NCBI GenBank assembly: GCA_002749205.1 | Contig: PDOP01000036.1 | Location: 1-64,000, forward strand | DNA from: Treponema sp. | Lineage (GTDB): Bacteria; Spirochaetota; Spirochaetia; Treponematales; Treponemataceae | Direction: 5' to 3' | Length of the DNA: 64,000 nucleotides | Part shown: in pieces, positions 6,742 to 63,890 of the stretch | How the letters are laid out: each line of letters starts with the position of its first letter | Numbering within the stretch: the stretch's first letter is position 1 | Notes under the pieces: model-generated | The model's database searches: none | Seen by the model: the letters and a program-made list of their open reading frames with translations, nothing else | Told to the model about the DNA's origin: nothing | Made by a program: the position numbers and the translations under genes

Positions 6742-7392
6742 TTATCGGCGATTAAACCAAACCTTTAAGGGCTTTATTCCGTATCGTATTCTGACATAAA
6801 GCCACGCTACAACCAGTCCTGCAAGATGCACTGCATGGGCTGTGTTGTCGGAAACAAAAAAGGCACTGTACAACTCAATTGCGGCGTAGATTAAAATCAA
6901 CAGCGGGGCGGGCATTGGGAGTATACCCCAGATGTAAATTTTGGCATCGGGATACAAAACAGCAAAAGCAAAGAGTAAGGCGAAAATAGCTCCTGATGCA
7001 CCGATTACTATGACCCTTGTTGATGTGTACAAAAACAGGTAATAGTAAAGCCCGCAGGCAATTACTCCACAAAGTGTTCCGCATAACAGATAAAACAACA
7101 AAAATTCTTTTGAGCCCATTCGCTTTTCCAACGGTATACCGAAGAAAAATAACGCAAGCATGTTAAAGAAAAGATGCCATATACCGCCATGCAAAAACTG
7201 ATAGGTGAACACTTGCCACAACCATTTAAGTTTTATCGTATACTCAGGCAGAAGAGCCAAATAAAGCTCGACATAATAGTTTCCGAATCTTTTAAAAATC
7301 GAAATAATAACGAAGACAATTATATTCACGGCAATTAAACCGATTGCGTAATTTTTGTAAGAGTAGTTAAAGGGTTTACGAATAAAGCTCAT
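6742..7392 (-). CDS. rhomboid-family intramembrane serine protease
   Basis: A polytopic membrane protein of 216 residues with about six membrane segments. The rhomboid signatures are complete: HGGIWHLFFNMLALFFFG (the His-x3-His-x3-Asn motif in the second helix), the catalytic serine in GASGA about residue 130, and the catalytic histidine in AHAVHLAG in the last helix. Such enzymes cleave transmembrane substrates within the lipid bilayer. It is third in a minus-strand operon, 8 bases after the diguanylate cyclase gene. The substrate is unknown; the exported protein encoded next is a candidate partner only by position. Confidence 0.92.
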   Translation of the reverse strand: MSFIRKPFNYSYKNYAIGLIAVNIIVFVIISIFKRFGNYYVELYLALLPEYTIKLKWLWQVFTYQFLHGGIWHLFFNMLALFFFGIPLEKRMGSKEFLLFYLLCGTLCGVIACGLYYYLFLYTSTRVIVIGASGAIFALLFAFAVLYPDAKIYIWGILPMPAPLLILIYAAIELYSAFFVSDNTAHAVHLAGLVVAWLYVRIRYGIKPLKVWFNRR

Positions 7393-7400
7393 CAGTTTTT

Positions 7401-8525
7401 TTACTTCCCTTTTTTCTCGGCTTTAAGATTTTTTTCGGATATAGTGTACCTGTTCTTACCGGAGTGTTTGGAATCATAAAGAGCCATATCGGAGCGTTCA
7501 ACCAGCATTTTCATGGACTCACGACTGTGTATGTACTGTGCAATACCGATTGAAATGGTAACCTTTATTGGTTTATCATCGTATATGATTTCCATATTTT
7601 CAACACGCTTTCTGATACGCTCGGCGATTGTTACGGCTATTTCAGAGTCGGCTTCAGACAGCAAGGCAATGAATTCTTCGCCACCATATCTTGCCGCAAG
7701 ATCTGTCTGGCGAATTGAATCACGAATGATTTTAGCCACCTGCTGTAAAAGCAAATCACCGCAGGCATGTCCATAAGTGTCATTGATTTTCTTAAAATCA
7801 TCGATGTCGAACATAAGCACGGATAAATCCGTAAATTCATCAATAGATTCAATTTTTTCGACAAGAACCGAATAAAAGTAATGTTTTAATTTCAACCTTG
7901 TCATCATATCCGTGGTTGTCATTTCCAACAACTGTGAGTTGTTTATGGCAATAGCGGCAAGTGATGCAATGTTAATTATGATTTGCCGGTCGTACTCACT
8001 GTACGGAACGGCGAATTCAATTTGCTCTCCTAAAAGTAATATACCCACAACATGGCTTTTAGCCTTTAAAGGGACAACAAGCGAAGGGCCTAAGTCGAGC
8101 AACATACTCAATACTCTGTCGTCTTGCTTGGCAAGTCCTGTTTTTAACTCATCGAGTGTAACACATTTATTCTGTTTACTTAAAAACTCAACCAGCTCGT
8201 GATTATCGGGGATTGAATATTGCTTTTCGCGATTTATTTCAAAACCGTAAAAATCGCTGTGCAATAGATAAATATCATCATCAAAAGACTTTTTTGTAAA
8301 AATAGCTACACCGAAGGTTTTCATCTGAGCCATTACAACGTATAAAATTGATTCAATCAAACGATTAAATTCCAGCAATGAGTTAAGGCTCTTGGAAATC
8401 TCCAACAGCTGTTGCAGGTCAAAGATTTCTTTTTCTTGTTGTGTTACCTTAGTACGCAATTCACTCAAGTGTTTTGCTAAATTAAGCTTCTTCCGTTTTC
8501 TTTTGTTCAATTTTTTTATCCCCAT
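7401..8525 (-). CDS. diguanylate cyclase (coiled coil-GAF-GGDEF)
   Basis: A soluble protein of 374 residues that would make cyclic di-GMP from two GTP. A lysine-rich start and a short coiled coil (about 20-55) lead into a GAF-like sensor domain (about 55-200). The GGDEF domain follows, with FDIDDFKKINDTYGHACGD and the active-site signature GGEEF. The product-inhibition site RxxD (RQTD) lies five residues before GGEEF, so feedback inhibition is expected. It has no membrane segment, so it senses a cytoplasmic signal. The start at 8525 has an AAAGG site. It is co-transcribed with the DUF5312-like gene upstream (10-base gap) and rhomboid downstream. Confidence 0.92.
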   Translation of the reverse strand: MGIKKLNKRKRKKLNLAKHLSELRTKVTQQEKEIFDLQQLLEISKSLNSLLEFNRLIESILYVVMAQMKTFGVAIFTKKSFDDDIYLLHSDFYGFEINREKQYSIPDNHELVEFLSKQNKCVTLDELKTGLAKQDDRVLSMLLDLGPSLVVPLKAKSHVVGILLLGEQIEFAVPYSEYDRQIIINIASLAAIAINNSQLLEMTTTDMMTRLKLKHYFYSVLVEKIESIDEFTDLSVLMFDIDDFKKINDTYGHACGDLLLQQVAKIIRDSIRQTDLAARYGGEEFIALLSEADSEIAVTIAERIRKRVENMEIIYDDKPIKVTISIGIAQYIHSRESMKMLVERSDMALYDSKHSGKNRYTISEKNLKAEKKGK

Positions 8526-8535
8526 ACAATCACCT

Positions 8536-10161
8536 TTAACCGCCTTCTTGGTTATCTCTTATATTAATTATAGCATAATTTTTCATAATTTCAAGGAATT
8601 TTTTCAAAACTACGACAGACTTATCAAATTCATTAAATAAATTTTTAGTTTTTTGTGAAGTTGTGAAAAACCTCATATTTCCAACCAACTCAGGGGTGGG
8701 TTGTTTTGAATCAGATATAATCATATTACAATTGTTATACAGATTTGTATACTGAGCAAATGCCTGTTGAACAATTGTTTTCGCTTCATAGTTTAAGAAA
8801 ACCACTATTTTTTCAAGATGTTGCTCAAAATTTGCACCGTTTTCAATTTCTTTTAAGTACCCTTGAATAGTTTCCAGACTGTATTTGGAAGAAGCCAAAA
8901 ACAAATTGTCAAATTCTTCAAATTTATGCGATAATCCTTCGCAATAATAATAGGCTGAACTCAAATTTTGTTGTTTCTTTTTATCCTGAAAAAGTCCTTC
9001 CACGAGTAAATTCTTTAAAAAACCCTTCATGCTTTGCTCAAAAAACCTTTTAGTAAATGTTCGAAGCAATTCCATTGGTCTGACCCAATCAAACGAAAGC
9101 ATTGTTAAATTATACAATTTTTTGTTTATTTCATCGTTATAACCCGAAAAAGAAAACAATTTACCGGTACCAAAAGTTTCAGTAATCATATTGCTGATTT
9201 GTGCTTCCTGATGAAATGCAAAAAGGCGTTTTGAGCCTGCTTCAAATCGAATTTCCAGCCTCTCTAAATAATCTTTAACCGGTGAAAAATCAACTTCAGG
9301 GGTAGCATCTCTAAATTCAGGCTCCCCTTTGGCTATTCTAATCATGTACAAAATTGTATTTTTACCCAATCGCTTATTTATTATATCTGAGGCATCGCTA
9401 AGCTGTTTGGAAATAAACAAAAACTTATCCTCTGAATTACCTACAACCTGTTTATAAATCATCTGAATTGCATTCAACAATTCCGTATCTATTTCCAAAT
9501 TTTGAAACAAAAAATTCAGGTCTAAAAGACTTGGTAAGATATCATCCACGAACACAGAGGTAAAACTTTCGGTATCTACAGTTTTTAAACGCTCAGCCCC
9601 ACCTGTCAAAGACTTATTAAAATGCAAAAAAAAGGAATAATAATCAAAACAACATAAATCGTAAAATGCAAACACCTTTTTAATTACAGCCTCCGCATTA
9701 TCAATGGCAGGTGTACGAAATTCCCTGACAAAAGCATTAAAAAGGCTCGTTTGGTCTTGTATCCTTTTTTTCACAACTGCTAAGTCGGAATTTATCGCAC
9801 TCCTTAAATCCGTCTCCCGTTGCAAAAAATCAAAACTGCTTTTTTCCTTTGCCTGCTCGGGAGAAATTGCTTTTTCAATCAATAAATCCTGAAAACCGGA
9901 AGAAACCCTCGCATCTTTGGAAGCAATAGTTTGATCTAATGTAGTCTTTACGGTGAGTAAAACAACATACAGCTCATATAATACTCTTGCAAATTCAGGC
10001 GTTACGGCACCGTCTTTAGTCATAACGGGAAAAGAGAGCTCATTTAATTTTGCATAAAGCTCCTTTAATTTTACCCGCCTTTGGTTTTCAGGTGAAGAAG
10101 GAAAAAAAATAGAAGTGAAAAATATTCGTATCGCATCAAATAGCGTTATCAACAAATCCAT
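8536..10161 (-). CDS. large helical protein, DUF5312-like (paralogue of 37556-39265)
   Basis: A protein of 541 residues, mostly helical and without a signal peptide. Its first 20 residues are hydrophobic and amphipathic (LLITLFDAIRIFFTSIFF), a possible membrane anchor. It resembles the 569-residue protein at 37556-39265 in overall length and especially in a C-terminal block (TFTKRFFEQSMKGFLKNLL here, TFIKTFLTKM and MAGLLKTLVMDGKFY there). I take both as members of a spirochaete family of unknown function. A promoter ends 9 bases before ATG 10161, giving almost no leader. It is the first gene of the operon with GGDEF, rhomboid and an exported protein. Confidence 0.65.
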   Translation of the reverse strand: MDLLITLFDAIRIFFTSIFFPSSPENQRRVKLKELYAKLNELSFPVMTKDGAVTPEFARVLYELYVVLLTVKTTLDQTIASKDARVSSGFQDLLIEKAISPEQAKEKSSFDFLQRETDLRSAINSDLAVVKKRIQDQTSLFNAFVREFRTPAIDNAEAVIKKVFAFYDLCCFDYYSFFLHFNKSLTGGAERLKTVDTESFTSVFVDDILPSLLDLNFLFQNLEIDTELLNAIQMIYKQVVGNSEDKFLFISKQLSDASDIINKRLGKNTILYMIRIAKGEPEFRDATPEVDFSPVKDYLERLEIRFEAGSKRLFAFHQEAQISNMITETFGTGKLFSFSGYNDEINKKLYNLTMLSFDWVRPMELLRTFTKRFFEQSMKGFLKNLLVEGLFQDKKKQQNLSSAYYYCEGLSHKFEEFDNLFLASSKYSLETIQGYLKEIENGANFEQHLEKIVVFLNYEAKTIVQQAFAQYTNLYNNCNMIISDSKQPTPELVGNMRFFTTSQKTKNLFNEFDKSVVVLKKFLEIMKNYAIINIRDNQEGG

Positions 10162-10170
10162 ATCCGAAAC

Positions 10171-10199
10171 AGTTTACTCTGTTATTGCTAAAAATTCAA
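10171..10199 (-). promoter_or_regulatory. promoter of the DUF5312-GGDEF-rhomboid operon
   Basis: On the minus strand TTGAAT and TAAACT are separated by 17 bases. The -10 box ends 9 bases before the ATG at 10161, so the transcript would be nearly leaderless. Confidence 0.55.
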
Positions 10200-10341
10200 G
10201 TGCTATAATATGGAAATTATCGAAAAATCCAAAACATTTGTCAATTTCAATACGAAAATATAACTATTGTATGCCGGTCAAGTTTCGTTAAACAATTTTT
10301 GCTTTTTTCCTCATGTTAGAACAAATTTATTGAATTTTCAT

Positions 10342-10376: not shown

Positions 10377-10958
10377 ATGAAATTGATGAATAAACTTACT
10401 TTTTTTATTTTAATTTTTTCTCTGTTAATTTTTGCTTCTTGCGAAACAGTACAGGAAAAGGACGAGGAAGTTGCCGATAAAACTACGGCAACCGAGGAAC
10501 AGGATAACGGAAAAACAACAAAAAATCCTGATAAAACTACGAAGCCCAAAGAAGAAATTGTGGCAACCTTTGGAAATGTTACTATTACAAAGCAGGATTA
10601 TATAGACACAAAGTCAGAAATATCCGAAGTAGTTGACAATCTTAACGAAATAACCAAAAACAACGATTATGATCGCTGGCTGCAATATCTTTCCGATGAT
10701 TACATTGAATATTATTCAAATAAATCCGTGTTGGCAAAGGTATCAAAATCACTGCCGGTAAAAAACATACATCTGAACAGCTTACAAGACTATTTCAAAT
10801 TTGTGTTTGTACCGTCCAGAAAAAACATCCGTGTCGACGATATAAAATTCCTTTCGCCTTCTGCCGTTAACGTGATTATGAGGAACAAAAAAGGCTCATT
10901 GTTGGTCTATATTTTGGAAAAACAAGCGGGTAGATGGAAATTGGTTCCAAAAAAATAA
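10377..10958 (+). CDS. lipoprotein with NTF2-like C-terminal domain
   Basis: A protein of 193 residues. A type II signal peptide ends in FASC (lipidated Cys about residue 21). A linker rich in Glu, Lys and Thr (22-60) leads to a folded domain from about 65, with aromatic residues in the pattern of SnoaL/NTF2-like folds (DRWLQYLSDDYIEYYS, then strands ending VYILEKQAGRWKLVPKK). It is presumably anchored in the inner or outer membrane facing the periplasm. The promoter just before the ATG fixes the start. It is followed 91 bases later by a HEAT-repeat protein with its own ribosome binding site. The role is unknown. Confidence 0.65.
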   Translation: MKLMNKLTFFILIFSLLIFASCETVQEKDEEVADKTTATEEQDNGKTTKNPDKTTKPKEEIVATFGNVTITKQDYIDTKSEISEVVDNLNEITKNNDYDRWLQYLSDDYIEYYSNKSVLAKVSKSLPVKNIHLNSLQDYFKFVFVPSRKNIRVDDIKFLSPSAVNVIMRNKKGSLLVYILEKQAGRWKLVPKK

Positions 10959-11049
10959 AGGTTTTACACTGTTTTCAACCGAAAGCACTTGACTTTATGT
11001 GAAAAATGCTTGAAAATATAATTAAATACCGGACCACAGGAGGTCATTG

Positions 11050-11769
11050 ATGAAAAAAATTGTTTGTATTCTTTTTGGACTTTTTGTTTTGTCGGGTGCT
11101 GTAACGGCACAAGATGATTCGGAAGACATGATGACTGTTGAAGAAGCCTACCTCAACACGGTTGAAGGTGTGGTTATCAACGAAATGCTTAAAACCGATG
11201 GCCGAGACTCAAAGTTTGTTGCATTACAGTACATAGAAGAAGCCATTGAAAACGGAAGAGACTCAGAGGATATACAGAAGGCTTTGGGCAAACTGGCAAC
11301 TATCGGCTTATCGACTACCGTACTTGAAAACGGAAGAGTAGCCAATAATTATCCTGATGTACGAATAAAAGCCTGTGAGCTTTTGGGTAAATCCAAAAAC
11401 AAAGAAGCAAAATACGCATTAAAGCAAGTTATGTTTATGGACAACGAGCCTTCGGTAATTACTTCTGCAGTTAAAGCCTTGGGCGAAATAGGTTTTGATG
11501 AAAACGATGAAGAAATACTGGAAACAATCAACTGGGTAAACCAAAAGTTTGATATTTGTAATCCAACAAGCTCCTTGGCATTGGCACTTTTGAACACTTA
11601 CGAAAAAATTGCTCCAAATGTAAAAAACCGCAAAAGTCTAATCGAAGGCGTTATGCGAATTGCAAGCAATTACAGTTATGTAACACCTGTTCGAAATCGA
11701 GCCAAAGAAGTTCTTAGCAGCATAGCCGGACTTGGCGGCTCATCAAAAAAAAGCAAAAAAGGAAAATAA
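11050..11769 (+). CDS. exported HEAT-repeat protein
   Basis: A protein of 239 residues with a clear signal peptide (MKKIVCILFGLFVLSGAVTAQ). The mature part is alpha-helical, with HEAT/PBS-lyase-type repeats, for example VRIKACELLGKSKNKEAKYALKQ and VITSAVKALGEIG. These form a curved solenoid that binds other proteins. The ATG at 11050 is chosen because AGGAGG ends 6 bases before it; a TTG one codon upstream is less likely. The C-terminus is Lys/Ser-rich. The neighbouring lipoprotein may act with it, but only position suggests this. Confidence 0.8.
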   Translation: MKKIVCILFGLFVLSGAVTAQDDSEDMMTVEEAYLNTVEGVVINEMLKTDGRDSKFVALQYIEEAIENGRDSEDIQKALGKLATIGLSTTVLENGRVANNYPDVRIKACELLGKSKNKEAKYALKQVMFMDNEPSVITSAVKALGEIGFDENDEEILETINWVNQKFDICNPTSSLALALLNTYEKIAPNVKNRKSLIEGVMRIASNYSYVTPVRNRAKEVLSSIAGLGGSSKKSKKGK

Positions 11770-11819
11770 AATCCAACCTGCAAAGTCGGAAAAAAAATCG
11801 GCTTTGCAGATTTTAACTT

Positions 11820-12431
11820 ATGCTTTTGCTCGCCTCTAAATCAACGGAACGAAAAAAATTACTTGAAAGCCTACGAGTGATCTGTGAATCCGCAGAATCC
11901 GGCTTGGACGAAGAAGCGCTTAAACAAAAACTCGCAGTCAAAAACCTAACCCCCATTGAGCTTGCAGTTGAACTGGCTCTTGCAAAACTAAAAGCGACCA
12001 TAGACAACTATGACACGCAAAAATATGCGATGGTGCTGACTGCCGACACAATGATTTACATTGACAAGAACACAATTTTCGGAAAACCAAAGACAGCCCA
12101 AGAAGCAAAATCCATGCTCAGCAAATATTCAAACAACACCCACAATGTCGTTACCGCACTCGCCGCATACAACCCCAAAACCAAAGCGACCAAAACGACA
12201 ACCTCCGTTTCAAAAGTAACCTTCAAACAACTTGCCCCTAACGACATATCCTGCCTACTCGCCTCGCAAGAATGGAAAACCGCCGCCGGCGCATACCGAA
12301 TTCAAGGACTCGCCGCCAAATTCATCGACAAAACCGAAGGCTCATACACAGGCGTAATCGGACTGCCCGCAGACGAATTTCTAAAATTAGCAAAAGACCT
12401 GAAAACAGAGCACTCAGAAATTTTTTATTAA
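11820..12431 (+). CDS. maf: Maf-family nucleoside triphosphate pyrophosphatase
   Basis: A cytoplasmic house-cleaning enzyme of 203 residues that removes non-canonical or surplus nucleoside triphosphates by releasing pyrophosphate. Family marks are the start LLLASKSTERKKLLE (usual form LASxSPRR), TADTMIYIDKNTIFGKP with the catalytic acidic residue, and GAYRIQGLAAKFI followed by GSYTGVIGLP near the end. The first motif has Thr-Glu in place of Pro-Arg, so substrate preference may differ. The start ATG lies 51 bases after the HEAT-protein stop, with no clear ribosome binding site. Confidence 0.88.
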   Translation: MLLLASKSTERKKLLESLRVICESAESGLDEEALKQKLAVKNLTPIELAVELALAKLKATIDNYDTQKYAMVLTADTMIYIDKNTIFGKPKTAQEAKSMLSKYSNNTHNVVTALAAYNPKTKATKTTTSVSKVTFKQLAPNDISCLLASQEWKTAAGAYRIQGLAAKFIDKTEGSYTGVIGLPADEFLKLAKDLKTEHSEIFY

Positions 12432-37555: not shown

Positions 37556-39265
37556 ATGAATAAAGCTGTTTCAACTTTCGATAAACTCGTTCAAACTATA
37601 TCATCTGATGAAGCAAATGATATGCTTTCAAAAATTCAGTCTACGGTCAGTGCCGTTGACGCAAAAGTTGCCGGCTCTGCTTCTGCATCCGAAAAAGCCT
37701 TCGTTGTAAAAAACAGAGTTCCTGCTTCAATTACTGAAGAGCCTTTTTTGTTAAGATTGCTTTTAAGAATTATTTCTTTTGTTCGCTCAACACCGGTTGA
37801 AAAAATTTATGACGATTACCTTATAAAAAGTTTAGGCAGGGATCTAAAGCGACAGGCCTCCACATTTATAAATATAGACAAAAATACTTATACCTCAAAG
37901 TTTTACGATTCTTTGCGAGATTTAAGAAAAGCACAAATGTTTTTTTCAGGTTTGCTTACCGCTTATGATTCAGAAAAGGGTAAGTTTTATATGCTCGTTT
38001 CATCGTTCATAGCCCCTTCTGTTTATGAATCGCTAATGGCAAAGACAGACCCTTCCGACACTCAAATGGAAAAACAGGCAACACCCAATCTAAAAGCAAA
38101 TCTTCTTCGCAGTATTGATGAAGCATTTTCGCAATTAACCGGAGAGCATAAAGCAAAAATATACGCATGTGCCAAAGGTATTGAATGGATGAAGAGTTTA
38201 TGTGATATTCCGCTTGATAAAGTGATTTTCAGGTTTGATGTAAACTCTGAAAATGATGTATACTGCTCTCCTGCGTCAATACAAAATGAAATGCAGATGC
38301 TCTCGTCTGTTCTAGCTTCTTCAAAGCGTATTCCTGAAGTTTCATTACAGGCTCTTTTTTTACTGTGCCAACAAGATATTATTACAGGACAGCCGGAAAA
38401 TTTACAAGAAAAATTAAGCGGCTTTTTGGAAGATGCTATTGCTTCACTCGAGTGCATTCATAAATTTGTTTCTGTAATTCCGTTGATGCAAATTATTCGA
38501 TATGTCGGGAAAGATATAAAATGGACTCCTCTCAAAATTGACGGCGGTGAAGAATGGTTTGTGTTTTTCAAACATGCTTGGAAAGAAAGATTTAACGAAA
38601 AATGGGGATTTTGGGCATCTAAACAACAAAAGGAAGAGCTGTCCGAAAGAATGCTTATATTCCTCAAACAAAAAAAACTCATGAATTTAGCTTACACGCC
38701 TTGGAAAAAATTAACTTCCCCTGTTGTATTTAAAAGAGAGCTTTCGCTGACTTTCATAAAAACTTTTTTAACGAAAATGTATAACCCTAAAATGGCAGGG
38801 TTACTTAAAACACTTGTAATGGACGGTAAGTTTTACAGAAAAGAAAACAAGAGCGAAATTACAGATGCGTTTGCAAATTTAAGAATACAGACCGATTTAC
38901 TGGCGGAGTATGAAAGACTGTTAAGCCCTGACGGTGAAATAGGCGATGGTTTTGCAAAATTAAAATCAGAAAAACTTGTAGGCTTGAAATTTAAAAACAC
39001 GCTGGATATGCTTATGCGAAGTGTTGAAACAAATGCAAAGCAACTGTCAAACGGCGTTTCGTCAGCATTAAAATCAATGTACTCTGTATTGACGGGAGTC
39101 CTAACAGGCGGTAAAACGGGTATTTATGCAACCATTGCCAACAAGCGGGAAATCAAAGGGGCTAACAATAGAGAGTATATCGAAGACCTTGAAAAAGTAT
39201 GTGAACAAGTAAAAAAAGCTCTTAACATGCTTGAAACTTTGGAAAAGATAGAAAGCAATGGATAA
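37556..39265 (+). CDS. large helical protein, DUF5312-like (paralogue of 8536-10161)
   Basis: A cytoplasmic-looking protein of 569 residues with mostly helical sequence and no signal peptide. A hydrophobic helix occurs near 62-75 (PFLLRLLLRIISFV). The C-terminal half shares a block with the protein at 8536-10161 (TFIKTFLTKM, MAGLLKTLVMDGKFY, AEYERLL). TATAAT at 37543-37548 ends seven bases before the ATG; a -35 box is not evident. It overlaps pgeF by 8 bases, so both are translated together. The function is unknown. Confidence 0.65.
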   Translation: MNKAVSTFDKLVQTISSDEANDMLSKIQSTVSAVDAKVAGSASASEKAFVVKNRVPASITEEPFLLRLLLRIISFVRSTPVEKIYDDYLIKSLGRDLKRQASTFINIDKNTYTSKFYDSLRDLRKAQMFFSGLLTAYDSEKGKFYMLVSSFIAPSVYESLMAKTDPSDTQMEKQATPNLKANLLRSIDEAFSQLTGEHKAKIYACAKGIEWMKSLCDIPLDKVIFRFDVNSENDVYCSPASIQNEMQMLSSVLASSKRIPEVSLQALFLLCQQDIITGQPENLQEKLSGFLEDAIASLECIHKFVSVIPLMQIIRYVGKDIKWTPLKIDGGEEWFVFFKHAWKERFNEKWGFWASKQQKEELSERMLIFLKQKKLMNLAYTPWKKLTSPVVFKRELSLTFIKTFLTKMYNPKMAGLLKTLVMDGKFYRKENKSEITDAFANLRIQTDLLAEYERLLSPDGEIGDGFAKLKSEKLVGLKFKNTLDMLMRSVETNAKQLSNGVSSALKSMYSVLTGVLTGGKTGIYATIANKREIKGANNREYIEDLEKVCEQVKKALNMLETLEKIESNG

Positions 39266-40050: not shown

Positions 40051-41004
40051 TTAATCATCAAGTTCAGATTCAACAATGAATCTATTATTCTCTTTTTTGA
40101 TTTTTGAAGCAGGAAAAGTAATAACACTTCCGGCATTATCAGTACATGATACAGTGCCTGAAACCAAATTAACTTCAGAAACCCTTAACATATTATCTTC
40201 AAAAAATATCTTAGTACCTTCAGCCGGCATGGTTCCCTTTTCATCGGCATACCAATCATGCTCATAAGAAAGACAACATAAAAGCCTGCCGCATTGTCCG
40301 GATATTTTTACCGAATTAAGTGAAAGACTTTGGTCTTTTGCCATTTTTATTGAAACAGGTTGGAGTTTATCGGTTATTGAATGGCAACAAAAAACCCTTC
40401 CACAAGAGCCTATCCCGCCGGTAATTCTGGATTCATCGCGTACACCAACTTGACGAAGCTCGACACGAATTTTAAATACAGAAACAAGGTCTTTAACCAA
40501 TTTACGAAAATCAACCCTGTTATCCGCACTGAAAAAGAACAGTACTTTTGGCTCCTCCAATAAAAAATGAGTCTTTAAAAGCTTCATATCAAGGTTGTTT
40601 AATGCAACTTTTTCAGAAAAAATTTTACCCGCATCTAAAGACTTCTTTTTGTTTTGCTCATAGTTACCGATATCCTGTTCCGTGGCAAGCCTTTTTATTA
40701 AATTCACATCTTTGCGTTTCAAACCGCTCGGAACAGCCACTTGCCCTGTAACCCGAACTATATCATCACCGTATCTAGTTGTAGCAATTACATAATTTCC
40801 GGCTTTAATATCGAGCTTTGTATCAGAAGTTGCGTAATAACTTTCTTTTGAATAATCCAAACAAAGTATATATAAACCATTTGGAAATTCTAAATCATCT
40901 TTTTCGCAAAGACCCTCTTGAGATTCTACATTTTCTGAAGTCTCATCATTTTCCGAGCATAAAATATCTTCTTCTGCTGTTGCTTTTAAATCTATATCGT
41001 CCAT
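40051..41004 (-). CDS. ricT: RicT/YaaT (PSP1 domain) protein
   Basis: A protein of 317 residues. An acidic N-terminal stretch (1-50) leads to a PSP1 domain. The signature cysteines are GIGSCGRVFCCHS and ISGQCGRLLCCLSYEHDWY, which bind the Fe-S clusters of the Ric complex in Bacillus. There RicT works with RicA and RicF to activate RNase Y processing of mRNAs. RicA and RicF are not seen here. Its neighbour YaaR mirrors the Bacillus yaaR-yaaT region. It is the last gene of the M23-bactofilin-yaaR-ricT operon. Confidence 0.9.
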   Translation of the reverse strand: MDDIDLKATAEEDILCSENDETSENVESQEGLCEKDDLEFPNGLYILCLDYSKESYYATSDTKLDIKAGNYVIATTRYGDDIVRVTGQVAVPSGLKRKDVNLIKRLATEQDIGNYEQNKKKSLDAGKIFSEKVALNNLDMKLLKTHFLLEEPKVLFFFSADNRVDFRKLVKDLVSVFKIRVELRQVGVRDESRITGGIGSCGRVFCCHSITDKLQPVSIKMAKDQSLSLNSVKISGQCGRLLCCLSYEHDWYADEKGTMPAEGTKIFFEDNMLRVSEVNLVSGTVSCTDNAGSVITFPASKIKKENNRFIVESELDD

Positions 41005-45612: not shown

Positions 45613-46926
45613 TTATTCCAACACGGCAATTGTTTCAACATGTGCAGTGTGCGGAAACATGTCAACCGGCATAATTTTTTTTACGCAATAGCTTTGTTTT
45701 AAAATTGCAATATCTCGTGAAAGTGTCGAAGGCTTACAACTTACATAAATAATGCGAGACGGTAAAATACGCAAAATGGTTTTTAAAACTTCAGGGGCAC
45801 AACCGCTTCTTGGCGGATCCAAAACAATTAAATCAGGCTTTTCGTATTGTTTAATCCATTTTGTCAAAACACAAGACGCCTTACCGCATTCAAAAATTGC
45901 GTTTTCAATATTATTCAACTCGGCATTTTCTTTTGCATTTTGAATTGAAGAAAATGCAATATCGTTTCCGCGAACCAGTTTTGCTTTTTTTGAAAGCATC
46001 AAACTTATTGTACCGACACCGCAAAATAAATCCCAAACTTGCTGACAGCCCGTTAATTCGGCAGACTCAAAAATTTTTTTATACAACACTTCCGTTTGCA
46101 AATGATTAACCTGAAAAAAAGTATCCGCAGAAATTTTAAAACGCAAACCTGCAAGCCTGTCAGTAATACTACCCGTACCATACAGCACTTCAATAATACC
46201 GGTTTTCGCATCTTGCCGGACAACGCTTTCAATCGAAGGAAAAGCCTTTATTAAACTGTCGGCTAAACCCTTCAAGAGCGACAAACCTCTTTGAGCCTTA
46301 CACTCACCTTTTATTACAATTAACTTTTTGTTGTCGAAAGCGGTTCGAATAATCAATTCAGAAATTACGCAACTTCTGTCAACCGTATTTAACCACACAC
46401 TACATTCATCTAAAATAGCAGCATTTTCTTTTTTGTAAATAATGCTGTCATGCTCGAACAGCACATCATTTGAATTAGGCAAATAAGAGCCAAACCCAAT
46501 CCGCCCGTCTGGCATAACCGCAGATGCGTACCTTGCCTTGTTGCGGTATCGGTCAGGATCGGTCATACCGATAATCGGCTCAAAGACATTGTCCAGAAGA
46601 TTCACTTTTGCAATTCTATTCAGTGCATTTTTGACAATCGCATTTTTTTCACTTAACTGTGCCGAATACTGCAACCTTGAAATTGCAGCCCCACCGCTAC
46701 ACCTTTGATATTTATCATGCGGTACAACGCTTAACGGCGAAAAACTTTCAACTTCCAAAACTTCCGCAAACGCATAACGCTTTTTTTTACTGCACACTTT
46801 TATTCTGACAACATCTTGCGGAATTGCCCCTTTGACAAAATATGTAAAACCGTCCTTATGAGCAACACCTCGCCCATCATCAGTAATCGATTCAATTCTA
46901 ACTGTTTCGCCTGTTTTCATTTTCAA
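45613..46926 (-). CDS. rlmD: 23S rRNA (uracil-5-)methyltransferase, RlmD/TrmA family
   Basis: A protein of 437 residues. An N-terminal TRAM domain (1-58) is followed by the methyltransferase: QVWDLFCGVGTISLML (SAM binding), VLDPPRSGCAPEVLKTI and the catalytic Cys in IIYVSCKPSTLSRDI. FFQVNHLQTEVLY precedes the SAM site. Only one Cys (RCSGGAAIS) remains where RlmD has a CxxCGGC-type Fe-S cluster site, so this member seems to lack the cluster. It methylates a uracil in 23S rRNA, or possibly tRNA; the exact site cannot be told. It is monocistronic. Confidence 0.88.
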   Translation of the reverse strand: MKMKTGETVRIESITDDGRGVAHKDGFTYFVKGAIPQDVVRIKVCSKKKRYAFAEVLEVESFSPLSVVPHDKYQRCSGGAAISRLQYSAQLSEKNAIVKNALNRIAKVNLLDNVFEPIIGMTDPDRYRNKARYASAVMPDGRIGFGSYLPNSNDVLFEHDSIIYKKENAAILDECSVWLNTVDRSCVISELIIRTAFDNKKLIVIKGECKAQRGLSLLKGLADSLIKAFPSIESVVRQDAKTGIIEVLYGTGSITDRLAGLRFKISADTFFQVNHLQTEVLYKKIFESAELTGCQQVWDLFCGVGTISLMLSKKAKLVRGNDIAFSSIQNAKENAELNNIENAIFECGKASCVLTKWIKQYEKPDLIVLDPPRSGCAPEVLKTILRILPSRIIYVSCKPSTLSRDIAILKQSYCVKKIMPVDMFPHTAHVETIAVLE

Positions 46927-47202: not shown

Positions 47203-47235
47203 AAATCAAATCGGGGACACCTTATGTCCCCGATT
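47203..47235 (-). terminator. terminator of the prd operon
   Basis: AATCGGGGACA and TGTCCCCGATT pair perfectly, nine bases after the prdB stop. A T-rich but interrupted stretch follows on the minus strand. Confidence 0.7.
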
Positions 47236-47243
47236 AAATCCTT

Positions 47244-47969
47244 TTATACCACAGCGATATATTCGTATGGTATTGGAACAATCTTGCCCGCTGATGGTAT
47301 TTCAATCAGCTGTCGCAATGTGTCTTTTAGGATATTTGTTTGCATTTCAGGATTGTTAGGCTCGCCTACATTTGCACCCATAGGCACAATAGGAGCTACA
47401 GCCCTTGGTGTTCCGTTTTGTCTTACGACCGGTGGTAATGCCGCTATGATTATCGTAGGAATACCCGATTCCTCTATCGCTCTCTGTACAATTACAGCTG
47501 AGCGGTGGCAAGTACCTCATCCTGCGGTAAGAACAACAGCATCTACATCTTCCTCTTTTAATTTTTTTGCGATAGCAGGGCCTGTTTCTTGGGTGAACTT
47601 AGTTTGATCACCACCACCGCCCATGAAGCCGAAAAGCACAGGTGCAACCGACTTAATAAAGCCTTCTTTTTCAAGTTCCTGCAAACGCGTAATAGGGAAC
47701 ATGCAGTTAATGTCTTTGTTTACATCACCGTTGTCATAACCACCATGCGAAACCATTAAATCACCGGGTTTTGTATTGCCGGGTATTTCTCTAAATGAAG
47801 AGTCTCCTGCTAAATTAAACCTGGCATCTGTTTTAAGATGCACACCTGCCGCAGTTGCAATAGCAACACGCATATCTTTCAGCTCTTTTGTTACCGGAGT
47901 CCACACTGGTGGCGGAGTAATCGGTACAAAAATTTCAGACTGTAAGCCTTTAACTGTTGTAAGACTCAT
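47244..47969 (-). CDS. prdB: D-proline reductase subunit PrdB (selenoprotein)
   Basis: A protein of 241 residues read through an in-frame TGA at 47517-47519 (Sec151). Before it comes VDAVVLTAG, after it GTCHRSAVIVQRAIEESGI, the GrdB/PrdB selenocysteine site, and the frame ends at TAA 47244. The selenocysteine attacks the alpha carbon of D-proline during ring opening to 5-aminovalerate. ATG 47969 has GGAGG seven bases upstream; longer frames start in the upstream gene. A SECIS-like hairpin lies just after the TGA. It is the last gene of prdC-prdA-small protein-prdB and overlaps the small gene by 20 bases. Confidence 0.95.
47479..47503 (-). promoter_or_regulatory. bacterial SECIS-like hairpin of prdB
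   Basis: On the minus strand GCTC and GAGC enclose CTGTA and TACAG around loop ATTG. It starts about 13 bases after the TGA codon, within the range for SelB recruitment. Confidence 0.6.
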
Positions 47970-48225
47970 TGTTAGCCTCCTTAATAATTGCTCGTTTTTT
48001 GTTGATGTACTCTGAATCGACAGCATCACTCATAACTTCAGGGAAGCTCATCATAAAGCCGACTATCATACCAACTTTAAGATCGTAATCGGAAATAACC
48101 ATTCTAAGCGGTAATCTCATATATCCCAGTCTTCCCTTAAAATCAATTGCAACCGATCCATCGGTAACCTCAACAATTATACCTTCCATATAGCGCTCAG
48201 TTGAAATATATTTCAACTTTTCCAT
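47950..48225 (-). CDS. small CBO2463/CBO2479-type protein of the proline reductase operon
   Basis: A cytoplasmic protein of 91 residues: a small beta-strand domain (ERYMEGIIVEVTDGSVAIDFKGRLGYMRLPLRMVI split over strands) then SDYDLKVGMIVGFMMSFPEV and a Lys-rich end. I recognise it as the small protein found beside prdA in proline-reducing clostridia. Its chemical role is unknown; assembly or regulation of the reductase is a guess from position. AAGGA in the prdA end serves as its ribosome binding site. The gap to prdA is two bases. Confidence 0.75.
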   Translation of the reverse strand: MEKLKYISTERYMEGIIVEVTDGSVAIDFKGRLGYMRLPLRMVISDYDLKVGMIVGFMMSFPEVMSDAVDSEYINKKRAIIKEANNESYNS

Positions 48226-48227
48226 AA

Positions 48228-50090
48228 CTATTCCTTCTCGTAAATCTCAGCGCGCTTCTTGCTCTTTTCCAAAACCTGCTCATTTTCAACAAGCTCAATT
48301 TTAGTTCCCAATTCTTTTTCAATTGCTGCAATATTATTGAGCTTTACATTCCTGTTCCATTTTCGCTCTGCGGCTTTTACTTCTTCGCCTGCAATTACAG
48401 ATTTCAGCATTGATAAAGCTCGTATAGCATCTTCAGATGTCATACAGTTATTTTCAAGAATTTCGTTTTCGATACCTTGCTGTGATTTATTGTTGTCAAC
48501 CATATTTTTCATATATTCATTTCCAACAACCAATGCACCTTGTACTGCCGAGAATGTCATACCGACAACAGGTATTCCGCGTTTACCTACTTCTTCATGG
48601 TGAGCGGCAAAGTCAATGTGGTTGTTTCCAAAGCCTTCAGTTGTAATAATTACACCATCAGGATTTACAGCCTCAACTGCCATACCAAGTCTTCTGGAAA
48701 CATAGAATTTTTCTGAATTTACCTGTGGTGAGCCAACAAATAACACACCGCAAAGATCTATTTCAGGGTCAGCCATTGCTTCAAGAACAAGTGGCTCTCT
48801 GAAATAATGTCTTGATGTTTCTTTTGATGCAGGACCGATACATGTTAAAGCATGTATACCACCGTCTAATACCTCAAGCGGAGAAAGCATAACAGGAACA
48901 TTACCTAAGTCAACATTAGGCTTTGCACCAAGTGTTCCTACCGGTTCAAGCGGTAAAATCAAATTGTCGTGCATAGCACCTTGTCCCATTATTTCTTTAC
49001 AGATAAGAACCTTAGTTTTTCCGGGTCGTCTTACTTGCTCGAATTTTTCGTTTCTAACTTCAAGTGAAGCTTCAGCTTTTTTCAAGGCTTGTCTAATTTC
49101 ATCAACTATAACGTCTGATGCCTTATGAGCCGCCAACGGACCTCTTCTTTCCATATTTGTTCCGGCTTTAATAACAACTTCTGTTTTGATGAAAATCTCA
49201 CCCTTATCAGGTGAACCGGGTCTGCCCCACATAATGTTTCTGTCCATACGACCTTCAGATGAACCGAACTCACCAATTTGTACACCGTTTTCATCGGTTC
49301 CTGTTACTATAAAGACAGTACCGTCAAGCACGCGTGTAACACCTTCGCCAAGATCTCCGTCTTCTTTTGTAGCGATAGGTTGAACATCCATTATAGTTTC
49401 GGAATATTCAGAATATTTTTCCGGTGTAATAATATCCATCTTGAGTTTTACAACAAGCTCTTCAGATGCAACAGCATCTTTTTCTATGTCATCGCGAATA
49501 TAAAGTGTTGTACCATCAAGCTTTGTTTCAGAACCACGCTTGATTTCAGAAATCTTAAAGTATTTCCTTTCAAGAGTGCGTAAAACTCTTTCTGACTGAT
49601 TGGCACCTGTTGATGCAGCTGAATTCATACCGGCAACACCGGCTAAAGCCCCACCTGCTACAGTTTGTGAAGGGGCATAAGAACCGCCCATAGGTATTTC
49701 CAAATTAATGTTTTTACCTTCGCCAATGCTGATTTTAAGCACACCTGCATTAGCTGTTTGGGCCATGTTTGAATTGTTGCTCTGTACTGCCACAGGTGCA
49801 GATTGCTCAGCCACTGCATCTTGTTTTGCAGGCAGACTTGAAGCACCGTCTACAAGATCAGGGGTAAGCGGTGTAAGAGCATCAACTGTTTTTGTTAATT
49901 TTCCACCGAGAACCTCTCCAATTTTAAGACAGTTATCAGGTATTGTCAACAATCCGGAGTCTACAAGATCAGGGAAAATTGCCGGATCTTCCAAGTTGGA
50001 TGGGTCAATAGAACTGCCACCCTCAAATCTACAACAAGTAATAGCTGGGTCATTCTCATGTTGCTTTGCTGTTTCATTTGTAATAGACAT
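48228..50090 (-). CDS. prdA: D-proline reductase proprotein PrdA
   Basis: A proprotein of 620 residues. It self-cleaves at Cys417 in GGIHALTCIGPA, leaving a pyruvoyl group on the new C-terminal chain that holds proline as a Schiff base. The N-terminal chain has a CC pair (AITCCRFEGG) and a low-complexity Ala/Gln/Asn linker (about 85-160). Further marks are RGPLAAHKASDVIVDEIR and EIMGQGAMHDNLILPLEPVG. It pairs with PrdB, and PrdC delivers electrons. AGGAGG precedes the ATG. It lies 23 bases after the extended prdC stop. Confidence 0.95.
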   Translation of the reverse strand: MSITNETAKQHENDPAITCCRFEGGSSIDPSNLEDPAIFPDLVDSGLLTIPDNCLKIGEVLGGKLTKTVDALTPLTPDLVDGASSLPAKQDAVAEQSAPVAVQSNNSNMAQTANAGVLKISIGEGKNINLEIPMGGSYAPSQTVAGGALAGVAGMNSAASTGANQSERVLRTLERKYFKISEIKRGSETKLDGTTLYIRDDIEKDAVASEELVVKLKMDIITPEKYSEYSETIMDVQPIATKEDGDLGEGVTRVLDGTVFIVTGTDENGVQIGEFGSSEGRMDRNIMWGRPGSPDKGEIFIKTEVVIKAGTNMERRGPLAAHKASDVIVDEIRQALKKAEASLEVRNEKFEQVRRPGKTKVLICKEIMGQGAMHDNLILPLEPVGTLGAKPNVDLGNVPVMLSPLEVLDGGIHALTCIGPASKETSRHYFREPLVLEAMADPEIDLCGVLFVGSPQVNSEKFYVSRRLGMAVEAVNPDGVIITTEGFGNNHIDFAAHHEEVGKRGIPVVGMTFSAVQGALVVGNEYMKNMVDNNKSQQGIENEILENNCMTSEDAIRALSMLKSVIAGEEVKAAERKWNRNVKLNNIAAIEKELGTKIELVENEQVLEKSKKRAEIYEKE

Positions 50091-50113
50091 TCATTCCTCC
50101 TAAAAGTATGATT

Positions 50114-51388
50114 TTAATTTTCAGTTTTTCTGTATAGCCTATGCCAACCGGCACGGAGAACATGGTCAGTTGAATGATAAAGCGGAACTCCTAACCTAGG
50201 AGCTGTAGTTGCAACCGTGTTTGTTCATCCTTCGCAAGTGCCGGCTATGATCACTTGCGCTCCTTCTTTCTTTAAGTATAAAACTTTTTCAGCTTGACCG
50301 GGACAAATACCTGGTAAATCACATCTAAGTCGACCGTTTACATCAACCATTCTTTTGCAGTTAGTAGAAGCAACAACTTCACCTCCCATATCCTCTGCAA
50401 TTTGTGTAAGCCTTGGAATACCTGCCCCGCATTCACACCCTATTACACCAAATTTTCTGGTTTCCTTAGGGAACGGAACAGCTGCCAAAACACCGCCCAA
50501 AGTCTTAACAACAGGTCTGTTTTCATCGCCGGGTTGTCCCGTAAAAGGACCTCCCAATACAAGCTCACCACGAGGCTCAATAAAACCTCCTGCTTGTTCA
50601 ACATATGTTGAAATAGGTGAGCCAATCGGTACATCAAAAAACACTTGCGGATTTTGCACCCGACCGGCGACAGTAATATCCTTAACAATACAAGGCATTT
50701 TTTTATCCACAGCTCGAACTATGTTTTTTATTGTTTCAACATTTGAAACTACTGCATTCGCCTTTGACGGAAGTTGTCCCGGCTCCAGCACAATGCCAAG
50801 AATTTCTCTTATAATAACCCTTTCATCACCGGCAGGATACATTTCAGGCAATGCTTTAACCGTTATGTTCTTAATCTCTTTACAAGCCCTTCCTAATGCA
50901 GTCATTGCTTTTAAGTTTTTTGTTTTAATCGCAATATAACCTTGATCGGCTTGCACAATATCCATAACAATCTGCAAGCCACGAATAATCATCTCAGGGT
51001 GAGCTTCAGCAAACTTAATGTTATGCTTTAAAAAAGGCTCACACTCAGCGGCATTAACAATAACAGTGCCTTTTGGAACGGGAGTGGCAAACTTAACAGC
51101 CGCAGGAAACCCGGCGCCACCTGCCCCTATAATTCCGGCCTCTTTGATTAAATCAAGTGGCTCAGTCGATTTGAGCGGAACAAATTCGTCTGATTGCACC
51201 TTATCCGCATCAATAGTGATTGAATTATCGTCTATAGACACAACCCTACCGGCAACACTTGAAAAAATATTCGCTCCAAGCCCGTTAGGTTCAGCAATTA
51301 ACGAACCTCTCTTTACAACAGCATCTACCTCAACAACCGGCACACACGGCGCTCCAACATGCTGTTTTAACGGAAAAACATAATTCAC
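50114..51388 (-). CDS. prdC: proline reductase electron carrier PrdC (selenoprotein)
   Basis: A protein of 424 residues once the TGA at 50225-50227 is read as Sec388. The frame then runs GUTNTV, later VPLYHSTDHVLRA and WHRLYRKTEN to TAA at 50114, which is the conserved PrdC tail. The body is RnfC-like: an N-terminal barrel-sandwich domain (VEVDAVVKRGSLIAEPN), a nucleotide-binding IIGAGGAGFPAAVKF, VNAAECEPFLKHN, and cysteines in GCECGAGIP and KEGAQVIIAGTCEG. It passes electrons, probably from NADH, to PrdAB. GTG 51388 has GGAGG five bases upstream. A gene caller that treats TGA as stop would lose the last 37 codons. Confidence 0.95.
50186..50204 (-). promoter_or_regulatory. bacterial SECIS-like hairpin of prdC
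   Basis: On the minus strand AGCTCCTA and TAGGAGTT surround GGT, with a one-base mismatch low in the stem. The loop carries the G and U expected for SelB binding. It begins 20 bases after the TGA. Confidence 0.65.
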
Positions 51389-51770
51389 TTCAACCTCCAG
51401 AACACTAAAGGGCTTACCAAAAGAATTGACAATACCCTTAGATTTAATCTATACGAATTTTCATTCGGCACCTTAAAACAGATAAACGAGCAACCTGCAA
51501 AACTCTTCTGACTTTTGCAATTTCCTCAACCTTTAGTTTCAAAGTACGAGGAAAGTATATCAAAAAAAATATTTCCTGTCAATCATTTATTCAATAACTC
51601 TCAATATTTTTTTATTTTTTTTAAACTTTATACCCCCTAAAAAAAGTCGTCTTTTAAAATTTCTTCAATTCAAAAAACGACCTTTCAAAGCATACCCTCG
51701 TTTGAGGGTATAACTTTTTATAAACGAACCAATTGCAAAAAAAATCGGTTGCTTTTGCAATTTCCTCAAA
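51389..51770. other. intergenic region upstream of prdC
   Basis: No gene is seen. It holds the ABC operon terminator (51639-51681), a hairpin ATACCCTC/GAGGGTAT at 51692-51711, and two TTGCAA-type palindromes (about 51503-51528 and 51735-51760). A promoter for prd must lie here, but I could not choose one. I see no -24/-12 (sigma54) box of the kind used with PrdR in clostridia. Confidence 0.5.
51639..51681 (-). terminator. rho-independent terminator of the ABC exporter operon
   Basis: On the minus strand GTCGTTTTTT pairs with AAAAGACGAC (one T-G), followed by seven T's. Confidence 0.7.
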
Positions 51771-62507: not shown

Positions 62508-63890
62508 GTGAACTGTTTTTTATTTGTCGATTTTGGCAGTACAAATACAAAGATCACTTTAGTTGACTCGGATAAAGAGGAGATCGTTGCTACGGCGAAG
62601 GCATACACCACTGTCGAAACCGATGTAATGACAGGATACAATAACGCATTGTCAAAAATCAATGAGCAAGTACAAGACTACACTGTTATAAAAAGTCTGG
62701 CATGCTCTTCCGCCGCCGGCGGATTAAAAATCATCGCCATAGGATTAGTCCCGGAACTTACCAGCGAAGCCGCAAAAAGAGCCGCATTGGGAGCCGGCGC
62801 AAAGGTTATTAACACATACAGCCACAACTTAACAATCTCGGAAACACAAGAAATAATAAATTCAAATGCCGACATAATCTTATTGGCAGGCGGTACAAAC
62901 GGCGGAGATAAAAACTGTATTTTACACAATGCAAAAATGCTAAAAGAGCATGGTGTAAAAGTACCGGTTGTAGTTGCAGGAAACAAAAGTGCCGCAGATG
63001 AAATATGCGAAATTTTTGGCGATTCAGTAGAATATCATATTGTAGAAAATGTCATGCCAAAAATCAATAAACTGAATGTCGAGAATGCCAGAGAAACAAT
63101 CCGTCAAATCTTTATGGAAAATATTGTAAAAGCAAAAGGAATGAAGAACATTCAGGATAAAATAGACGGACTTATAATGCCGACTCCCGCAGCCGTATTA
63201 AAAGCCGCCGAAATTTTATCGAAAGGCACGGACGATGAAGAAGGACTTGGCGACCTGCTGATTGTTGATATAGGCGGTGCAACAACCGATGTCCACTCTG
63301 CAGCAGACGGAGACCCCAGCAGTAGCGGAGTATTCCTGTATGGACTTGAAGAGCCGTTTATGAAGCGAACGGTAGAAGGGGACCTTGGAATGCGTTATTC
63401 AATCCCATCGGTTGTAGAAGTAGCCGGAAAGCGTGGGCTAAGACGGTACCTGCCAAACGAAAAACAATATGACGTTGAAGCAGAAGTAAAAAAACGAAAC
63501 ACCGAAACAAGCTTTATTTCACAAACCGAAAAAGATTTGGATTTTGATTCTGCAATAGCAAAAATTTGTGTCGATATATCCATGAAAAGACATGTAGGAA
63601 CTTTAAGGCAAGTATATAATGGAAGCAACGGCGCAAGTTTCCAACAAGAAGGAAAGGATTTAACCTGTACGCCTTACTTAATAGGAACAGGCGGAATTCT
63701 TGTTTATAACAGCAGATACAAAGATATTTTAGAAGCAGGGTTGTTTCGTGAAGACGAACCATTTTCTTTAAAACCCAAAAAACCGAAATTCTTATTGGAC
63801 AAAAAATACATTCTTTCTGCTATGGGGTTACTTGCAACAGTAAATCCCGATATGGCAATTAGAATATTAAAAAAGAATTTAGTCGAATAA
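62508..63890 (+). CDS. glmL: GlmL/MutL, reactivating ATPase of glutamate mutase
   Basis: A protein of 460 residues starting at GTG with GGAGA upstream. It belongs to the ASKHA fold: phosphate-1 loop VDFGSTNTKITLVD, and a second loop in LLIVDIGGATTDVHS. IILLAGGTNGGDKN is also typical of MutL. It is thought to exchange inactivated cobalamin in the mutase. Its place between glmS and glmE is the classic order. Confidence 0.94.
   Translation: MNCFLFVDFGSTNTKITLVDSDKEEIVATAKAYTTVETDVMTGYNNALSKINEQVQDYTVIKSLACSSAAGGLKIIAIGLVPELTSEAAKRAALGAGAKVINTYSHNLTISETQEIINSNADIILLAGGTNGGDKNCILHNAKMLKEHGVKVPVVVAGNKSAADEICEIFGDSVEYHIVENVMPKINKLNVENARETIRQIFMENIVKAKGMKNIQDKIDGLIMPTPAAVLKAAEILSKGTDDEEGLGDLLIVDIGGATTDVHSAADGDPSSSGVFLYGLEEPFMKRTVEGDLGMRYSIPSVVEVAGKRGLRRYLPNEKQYDVEAEVKKRNTETSFISQTEKDLDFDSAIAKICVDISMKRHVGTLRQVYNGSNGASFQQEGKDLTCTPYLIGTGGILVYNSRYKDILEAGLFREDEPFSLKPKKPKFLLDKKYILSAMGLLATVNPDMAIRILKKNLVE

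Follow-up and report, generated by a model that had tools for sequence, protein, structure and literature searches.

The closest described counterparts of the genes considered here are the D-proline reductase clusters of Clostridium (Acetoanaerobium) sticklandii and Clostridioides difficile, in which prdC, prdA, a small gene, prdB, prdD, prdE, prdF and prdG follow one another, with PrdR in C. difficile. In spirochaetes, the same superfamily of selenium-dependent reductases includes the glycine/sarcosine reductase (Grd) of Treponema denticola and Brachyspira, which acts on other substrates and uses protein A/C chemistry. The present analysis concerns eight genes in the genome of a Treponema sp. 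(GCA_002749205.1). Four of them lie on the minus strand at 47244-51388 of the window, by which we mean the whole 64,000-nucleotide stretch of contig PDOP01000036.1 (here C45) that was analysed, and the others lie on a second contig, C47. The products of these eight genes would probably act together to convert D-proline to 5-aminovalerate and so provide an electron sink; the genes likely derive from Bacillota and are probably served by two housekeeping-type promoters. We put the probability of this reading at roughly 0.8.

In the available parts of PMC1794560, the T. denticola selenoproteins are SelD, Gpx, GrdA, two GrdB and a thioredoxin, a list without a proline reductase. The passages of PMC2897892 describe a glycine reductase in Brachyspira, and the lone 'proline reductase' there is a family name. 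A survey counts proline reductase in 110 organisms, whose names are not given in the passages at hand (PMC5029168), and oral biofilms convert proline to 5-aminopentanoate, according to the available parts of PMC7855038. No report of a proline reductase in a treponeme was found in the literature examined, which included the accessible parts of PMC9751293 and PMC10484987, few subscription papers and no supplements; NCBI already labels PrdA in two proteins from Treponema metagenome-assembled genomes (MAGs). The enzyme belongs to a known type, here encoded in a split layout by a spirochaete.

Eight genes in two units

The initial annotation described 47244-51388 as a compact spirochaete operon for a selenoprotein D-proline reductase, and we agree on the enzyme and host: as judged by their translations, these four minus-strand genes are selenoprotein D-proline reductase genes of clostridial type, with model cut-offs passed and UGA codons at the selenocysteine (Sec) sites. 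NCBIfam equivalog cut-offs were applied to PrdA, PrdB and PrdC, and a domain cut-off to the small gene. The RnfC-like electron-transfer selenoprotein PrdC (50114-51388, GTG start, 424 residues) scored 560.7 bits against a cut-off of 490 (TIGR04481), with Complex1_51K and RnfC_N domains detected; the D-proline reductase proprotein PrdA (48228-50090, 620 residues) scored 974.5 bits against 700 (TIGR04480); the small CBO2463/CBO2479-domain protein (47950-48225, 91 residues) scored 88.1 bits against 50 (NF041553); and the selenoprotein subunit PrdB (47244-47969, 241 residues) scored 414.7 bits against 300 (TIGR04483). The prdB ATG at 47969 is preceded by an AGGAGG-type ribosome site, the longest frame beginning at 48029. 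PrdA contains, by sequence, the Thr416-Cys417 processing site for the pyruvoyl group (LTCIGPASKE), and the cysteine of this Thr-Cys pair is presumably where processing occurs. By analogy with the clostridial enzyme, whose PrdA proprotein is processed to yield a pyruvoyl group (PMC3091704, in the parts available), Cys417 (codon at 48840-48842, minus strand) is the predicted pyruvoyl precursor.

The prdB and prdC frames are open only when one UGA in each is read through. In prdB this is codon 151 of 241 (47517-47519, minus strand), the Sec site on translation, and in prdC it is codon 388 of 424 (50225-50227, minus strand), within a C-E-G-U (CxxU) motif. Among 82 other loci scanned, 75 contained the PrdB Sec motif, giving 76 matches that all have U at the site, and the PrdC CxxU motif was matched in 40 loci, with 26 U and 15 C at the Sec site. 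Sec in both PrdB and PrdC is shared with C. sticklandii, where the PrdB residue is 152 of 242, while C. difficile PrdC has Cys instead (PMC3091704, available parts). Selenocysteine machinery, on which the initial annotation had made its proposal depend, is present in the genome, in the form of selA (494.9 bits), selB (321 bits), tRNA-Sec (69.4 bits) and selD (343.7 bits), the last of which has one in-frame UGA itself. A hairpin just 3' of the prdB UGA (47478-47504, minus strand; -14.1 kcal/mol, z -1.74) is a possible selenocysteine insertion sequence (SECIS) element and is suggestive only; the upper stems of the SECIS candidates, judged by eye, seem to be in different registers, and folding offers weak support for such elements. 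Separately, the 35-base stretch starting 7 bases past the prdB UGA is identical between the window (47469-47519) and Geosporobacter subterraneus (locus L111, 9793-9843), and the region past this UGA appears by eye to be strongly conserved as DNA among the compared loci, perhaps reflecting constraint beyond the protein.

When the genome was searched with the PrdA model, a split PrdA-like pair came up on C47 (locus L041, whose coordinates are used for this contig throughout; all genes are on the minus strand). The order there is prdD (9468-10238; 344.4 bits against a cut-off of 320), prdE (8983-9456), which matches only the C-terminal half of PrdA (181.5 bits) and has no match to a model of its own, the proline racemase gene prdF (7938-8942; 603.6 bits against 556), and a TauE-family membrane gene (6990-7865). 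In the clostridial system, the membrane protein PrdG may export 5-aminovalerate (PMC3091704, available parts), and we infer that the TauE-like gene is prdG. The initial annotation was correct in finding no prdD, prdE or prdF nearby: across the window, PrdD and PrdE queries were significant only in prdA, and the PrdF query was not significant anywhere (best E value 4.1). Its idea of a minimal gene set is ruled out, because prdD, prdE, prdF and the prdG-like gene are all on C47; the prdF that it suggested seeking elsewhere in the genome is the racemase gene of that contig. Apart from prdR, which was not sought genome-wide, the D-proline reductase gene set is, by these matches, real and complete.

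The layout was compared with that of the named loci, which are the best 80 of 490 relatives, are biased to close ones, and have titles that by our own reading are all Bacillota. The small gene and PrdB stand behind PrdA in all 80, and PrdC stands directly upstream of PrdA in 70 (70 of 79 when loci with less than 1.5 kb of upstream sequence are set aside). Where at least 3.5 kb of downstream sequence was available, a prdD/E-like gene lay downstream of prdB in 71 of 76 loci and prdF in 59 of 76; prdF was found anywhere in the locus in 70 of these 76 (72/80 overall). Some Lachnospiraceae loci have prdF upstream on the opposite strand. A TauE-like homologue was present in 58 of the 80, directly behind prdF and on the same strand in 53. 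From this gene order, the two halves in the treponeme add up to a single clostridial cluster, divided at the point where prdB would adjoin prdD. The proteins, and their order within each half, are those of the C. sticklandii and C. difficile cluster; the treponeme set differs from it in (i) forming two units on two contigs, C45 and C47, instead of a single prdC-to-prdF cluster, (ii) having sigma-70-like promoters, with no sigma-54 site seen, and (iii) its spirochaete host. Neither split junction sits at a contig end. The prd genes have been described as 'either clustered or stand-alone' (PMC6615313, in the passages available).

Most likely, these proteins would form a functional D-proline reductase that serves as an electron sink, with the mechanism and the electron-sink role taken from the clostridial system (PMC3091704, available parts). 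L-proline would be racemised to D-proline by PrdF, and the ring would be opened by the PrdB selenocysteine, with electrons from NADH passing through the PrdC CxxU centre to PrdB. PrdD and PrdE each duplicate a part of PrdA and probably lend stability to the complex, and the TauE-like protein, as the predicted PrdG, may export 5-aminovalerate. The family also has sarcosine, glycine and betaine relatives, which might suggest that the proteins act on another cyclic or modified amino acid, such as a hydroxyproline. We consider this improbable, as PrdA, PrdB and PrdC all pass D-proline-reductase equivalog cut-offs, and the C47 racemase is above the cut-off as a proline racemase but below those for 4-hydroxyproline epimerase and trans-3-hydroxyproline dehydratase.

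Host and origin of the genes

The genome is a 1.91-Mb draft in 69 contigs, estimated to be 91.05% complete and 0.05% contaminated. Its fragmentation, together with the occurrence of both PrdA and prdF in just one of eight genus genomes (the others having weak PrdA matches of at most 60.6 bits) and the best match of the neighbouring RlmD at 48%, followed by matches at about 40% of which the labelled ones are Bacillota, could be taken to mean that the contigs bearing prd genes come from a clostridial contaminant and were wrongly placed in a spirochaete bin. The low contamination estimate and the surrounding sequence make this very unlikely. The PSP1 protein encoded at 40051-41004, 6 kb from prdB, had spirochaete labels only: among the matches listed (120 of 7630, one being the protein itself), all five with an organism label were spirochaetes, three of them Treponema. 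The DUF5312 protein at 37556-39265, 8 kb from prdB, is present in all eight genus genomes, the seven others at 39-45%. In tetranucleotide use, the two prd groups and the C47 flanks are all closest to other stretches of the same genome. For the C47 flanks, correlations were 0.90-0.95 with five such stretches; they fell to 0.69-0.81 for five stretches from the genus and did not exceed 0.59 for eight clostridial loci, so that C47 belongs to the treponeme genome; the corresponding values for the C45 prd operon were 0.75-0.83, 0.58-0.67 and at most 0.63.

The RlmD-like gene itself (45613-46926) adjoins prdB, and the genus copies match it at only 26-40%, six of the seven partially. It is closer to Bacillota than the genus copies are and may also be foreign. 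The insertion site was not found: RlmD has distant matches only, the flanking ABC pair has many genus paralogues, the places of these matches were not read, and 20-kb stretches around DUF5312 in five genus genomes have little gene order in common with the window.

Strong PrdA matches (E values up to 1e-60) occurred in one of 274 family genomes and in three of 392 phylum genomes, these 392 being a sample from a larger group; the three are this treponeme and two spirochaetes of another family (G080 and G088). In a protein search, the 19 closest PrdAs listed were 73-76% identical to that of the window; two of them (P0009 and P0020) are labelled Treponema sp. MAG by NCBI, and 17 have no organism label. 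A careful PrdA tree was built from 54 rows chosen by hand from 131, a choice that excluded L077 and some other long-branch rows, and was rooted by choice on G080 and G088. In it, the window PrdA forms one clade (99/95) with eight rows, namely seven of the 19 closest, P0009 and P0020 included, and P0022. This clade is nested in a larger group of 17 rows (100/100) that also contains Peptoniphilaceae and a Clostridium MAG and lies within Bacillota, and a quick tree of all 131 rows gave the same surroundings. The two spirochaetes of the other family (loci L125 and L124) have prdC, prdA, the small gene and prdB in the same order, followed by a prdD-like match. Their set differs from that of the treponeme in its PrdA (57% identity, separate clade), in an unsplit prdB-prdD junction, and in a PrdC with Cys for Sec. 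Joining the window PrdA and these two spirochaetes as one clade was rejected by the approximately unbiased (AU) test (p 3.6e-7, or p 0.003 with the Treponema-labelled clade added).

It is therefore likely, on the trees, that the prd genes were gained from a Bacillota donor; they do not resolve it to a genus, as those of PrdA, PrdC and PrdF disagree or stay open. In quick trees, for which support was by the Shimodaira-Hasegawa-like approximate likelihood ratio test (SH-aLRT) only, the window PrdC falls next to a Proteocatella group (95 SH-aLRT) and the window PrdB near Proteocatella and related loci, without a starred fork. Four of the Peptoniphilaceae loci (L081, L084, L098 and L113) have no prdC directly before prdA. 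Where the C47 half came from is not decided by the PrdF tree, and neither it nor the PrdE tree places the C47 proteins with the groups nearest PrdB and PrdC. This would fit a gain of prdDEFG on C47 apart from prdC, prdA, the small gene and prdB, and from another donor, in place of a split after one transfer. We regard such a separate gain as credible, though on balance not probable; trees that unite PrdF with those groups are not rejected in AU tests (p 0.13, 0.07 and 0.25), and the data thus do not decide between separate gain and a split after a single transfer.

Promoters and regulation

A sigma-70-like promoter, TTGACA-17-TATACT with TG, lies upstream of prdC (51554-51582, 11/12 matches), and a terminator-like hairpin with a 12-pair stem lies directly after the prdB stop (47209-47235). 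On C47, a terminator-like site after grdA (10415-10379) precedes a sigma-70-like promoter before prdD (10338-10310, 11/12 matches), and another terminator-like site is found behind the TauE-like gene (6965-6926); all of these are on the minus strand. A sigma-70 score of 11/12 was reached by 15 of 2000 shuffles for prdC (mononucleotide shuffles of the 202 upstream bases) and by 11 of 2000 for prdD, and sites of this score occurred in 86 of 5000 random stretches of the window. Of the 68 scorable named loci, 31 have a sigma-54 site with at most two mismatches within 402 bases upstream of prdC; for random stretches taken from these loci the figure was 65 of 1360. In the treponeme, no such site was found within 402 bases before prdC at up to three mismatches, and none before prdD or trxB.

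Each half is probably transcribed from a separate housekeeping-type promoter and not under the clostridial PrdR/sigma-54 switch. The initial annotation had spoken of later gain or different regulation and had proposed a tree test of transfer from Firmicutes. The gain is supported by the nesting of PrdA in Bacillota and by its presence in one of eight genus and one of 274 family genomes, whereas the different regulation is only suggested by sequence.

Several observations weigh against the overall reading. When entire regions are scanned, sigma-70 matches do not clearly outnumber those in shuffles (6 against a shuffle mean of 11.1 in the window region; 21 against 15.3, sd 4.1, on C47), nor are terminator-like sites (7 against 4.6 and 6 against 5.4, respectively). 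At two mismatches, a sigma-54 site is likewise missing from 37 of the 68 named loci. The GAFTGA signature of PrdR was not found in a scan of the window and five further stretches of the genome, unlike the C. difficile cluster with its PrdR, but prdR and sigma-54 genes were not searched genome-wide, and the signature was detected in only 14 of the 80 named loci. Past the prdC UGA, the hairpin does not stand out from shuffled sequence (z -0.62). In the quick PrdA tree, the fork around the window PrdA, beside L077, is open, and the Treponema-labelled PrdAs are in tension with the finding of no other PrdA in 274 family genomes, from which it follows that the P0009 and P0020 MAGs are either (i) outside the genomes searched or (ii) outside this family. 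Finally, misassembly could fake the split in a 69-contig, 91% complete draft.

As a tentative scenario, which we hold at less than even odds, a spirochaete took up the whole clostridial regulon, broke it between prdB and prdD, and placed both halves under housekeeping promoters, turning a switch induced by proline into a standing electron sink beside its own glycine-type reductases and methylaspartate pathway for glutamate, with spirochaetes having acquired the enzyme at least two times. With glycine and proline reductases, a spirochaete could make use of the two classic Stickland acceptors and be a competitor for proline; a clostridia-only census of 5-aminovalerate producers would overlook it. 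The split cluster also offers a testable case of the fate of a transferred regulon whose switch may have stayed behind.

A 17-base repeat, TTTTGCAATTTCCTCAA, has two copies upstream of prdC (window 51513 and 51753) and one behind trxB (L041 11366, minus strand); it was not found in four other stretches of the genome, nine genus stretches or 82 other loci.

Metabolic partners

Upstream of prdD on C47, and also on the minus strand, are trxB (11406-12359), trxA (10995-11312) and grdA (10431-10901), the last with a UGA at codon 43 and a score of 181.4 bits, against a cut-off of 130, for the part past the UGA. Relatives of the Grd proteins of T. denticola and Brachyspira are thus encoded in this genome, as grdA and as two GrdE/GrdB-type reductase pairs on C27 (L042 8497-10844) and C58 (L043 7784-10123). 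The GrdE-type alpha subunits are nearest the sarcosine model and below its cut-off; the GrdB-type subunits, scored up to the UGA, pass the general family cut-off and none of the substrate-specific ones.

A supply of proline from ornithine by ornithine cyclodeaminase is not supported, since PF02423 had no match in the 91% complete genome. RnfC, a subunit of the Rnf complex, was found on C68 (436 bits). The methylaspartate pathway of glutamate fermentation could supply electrons for the proline sink. Genes for glmL, methylaspartate mutase E and methylaspartate ammonia-lyase are located at the end of C45 (window 62508-63890, and L015 920-3717 beyond the window).

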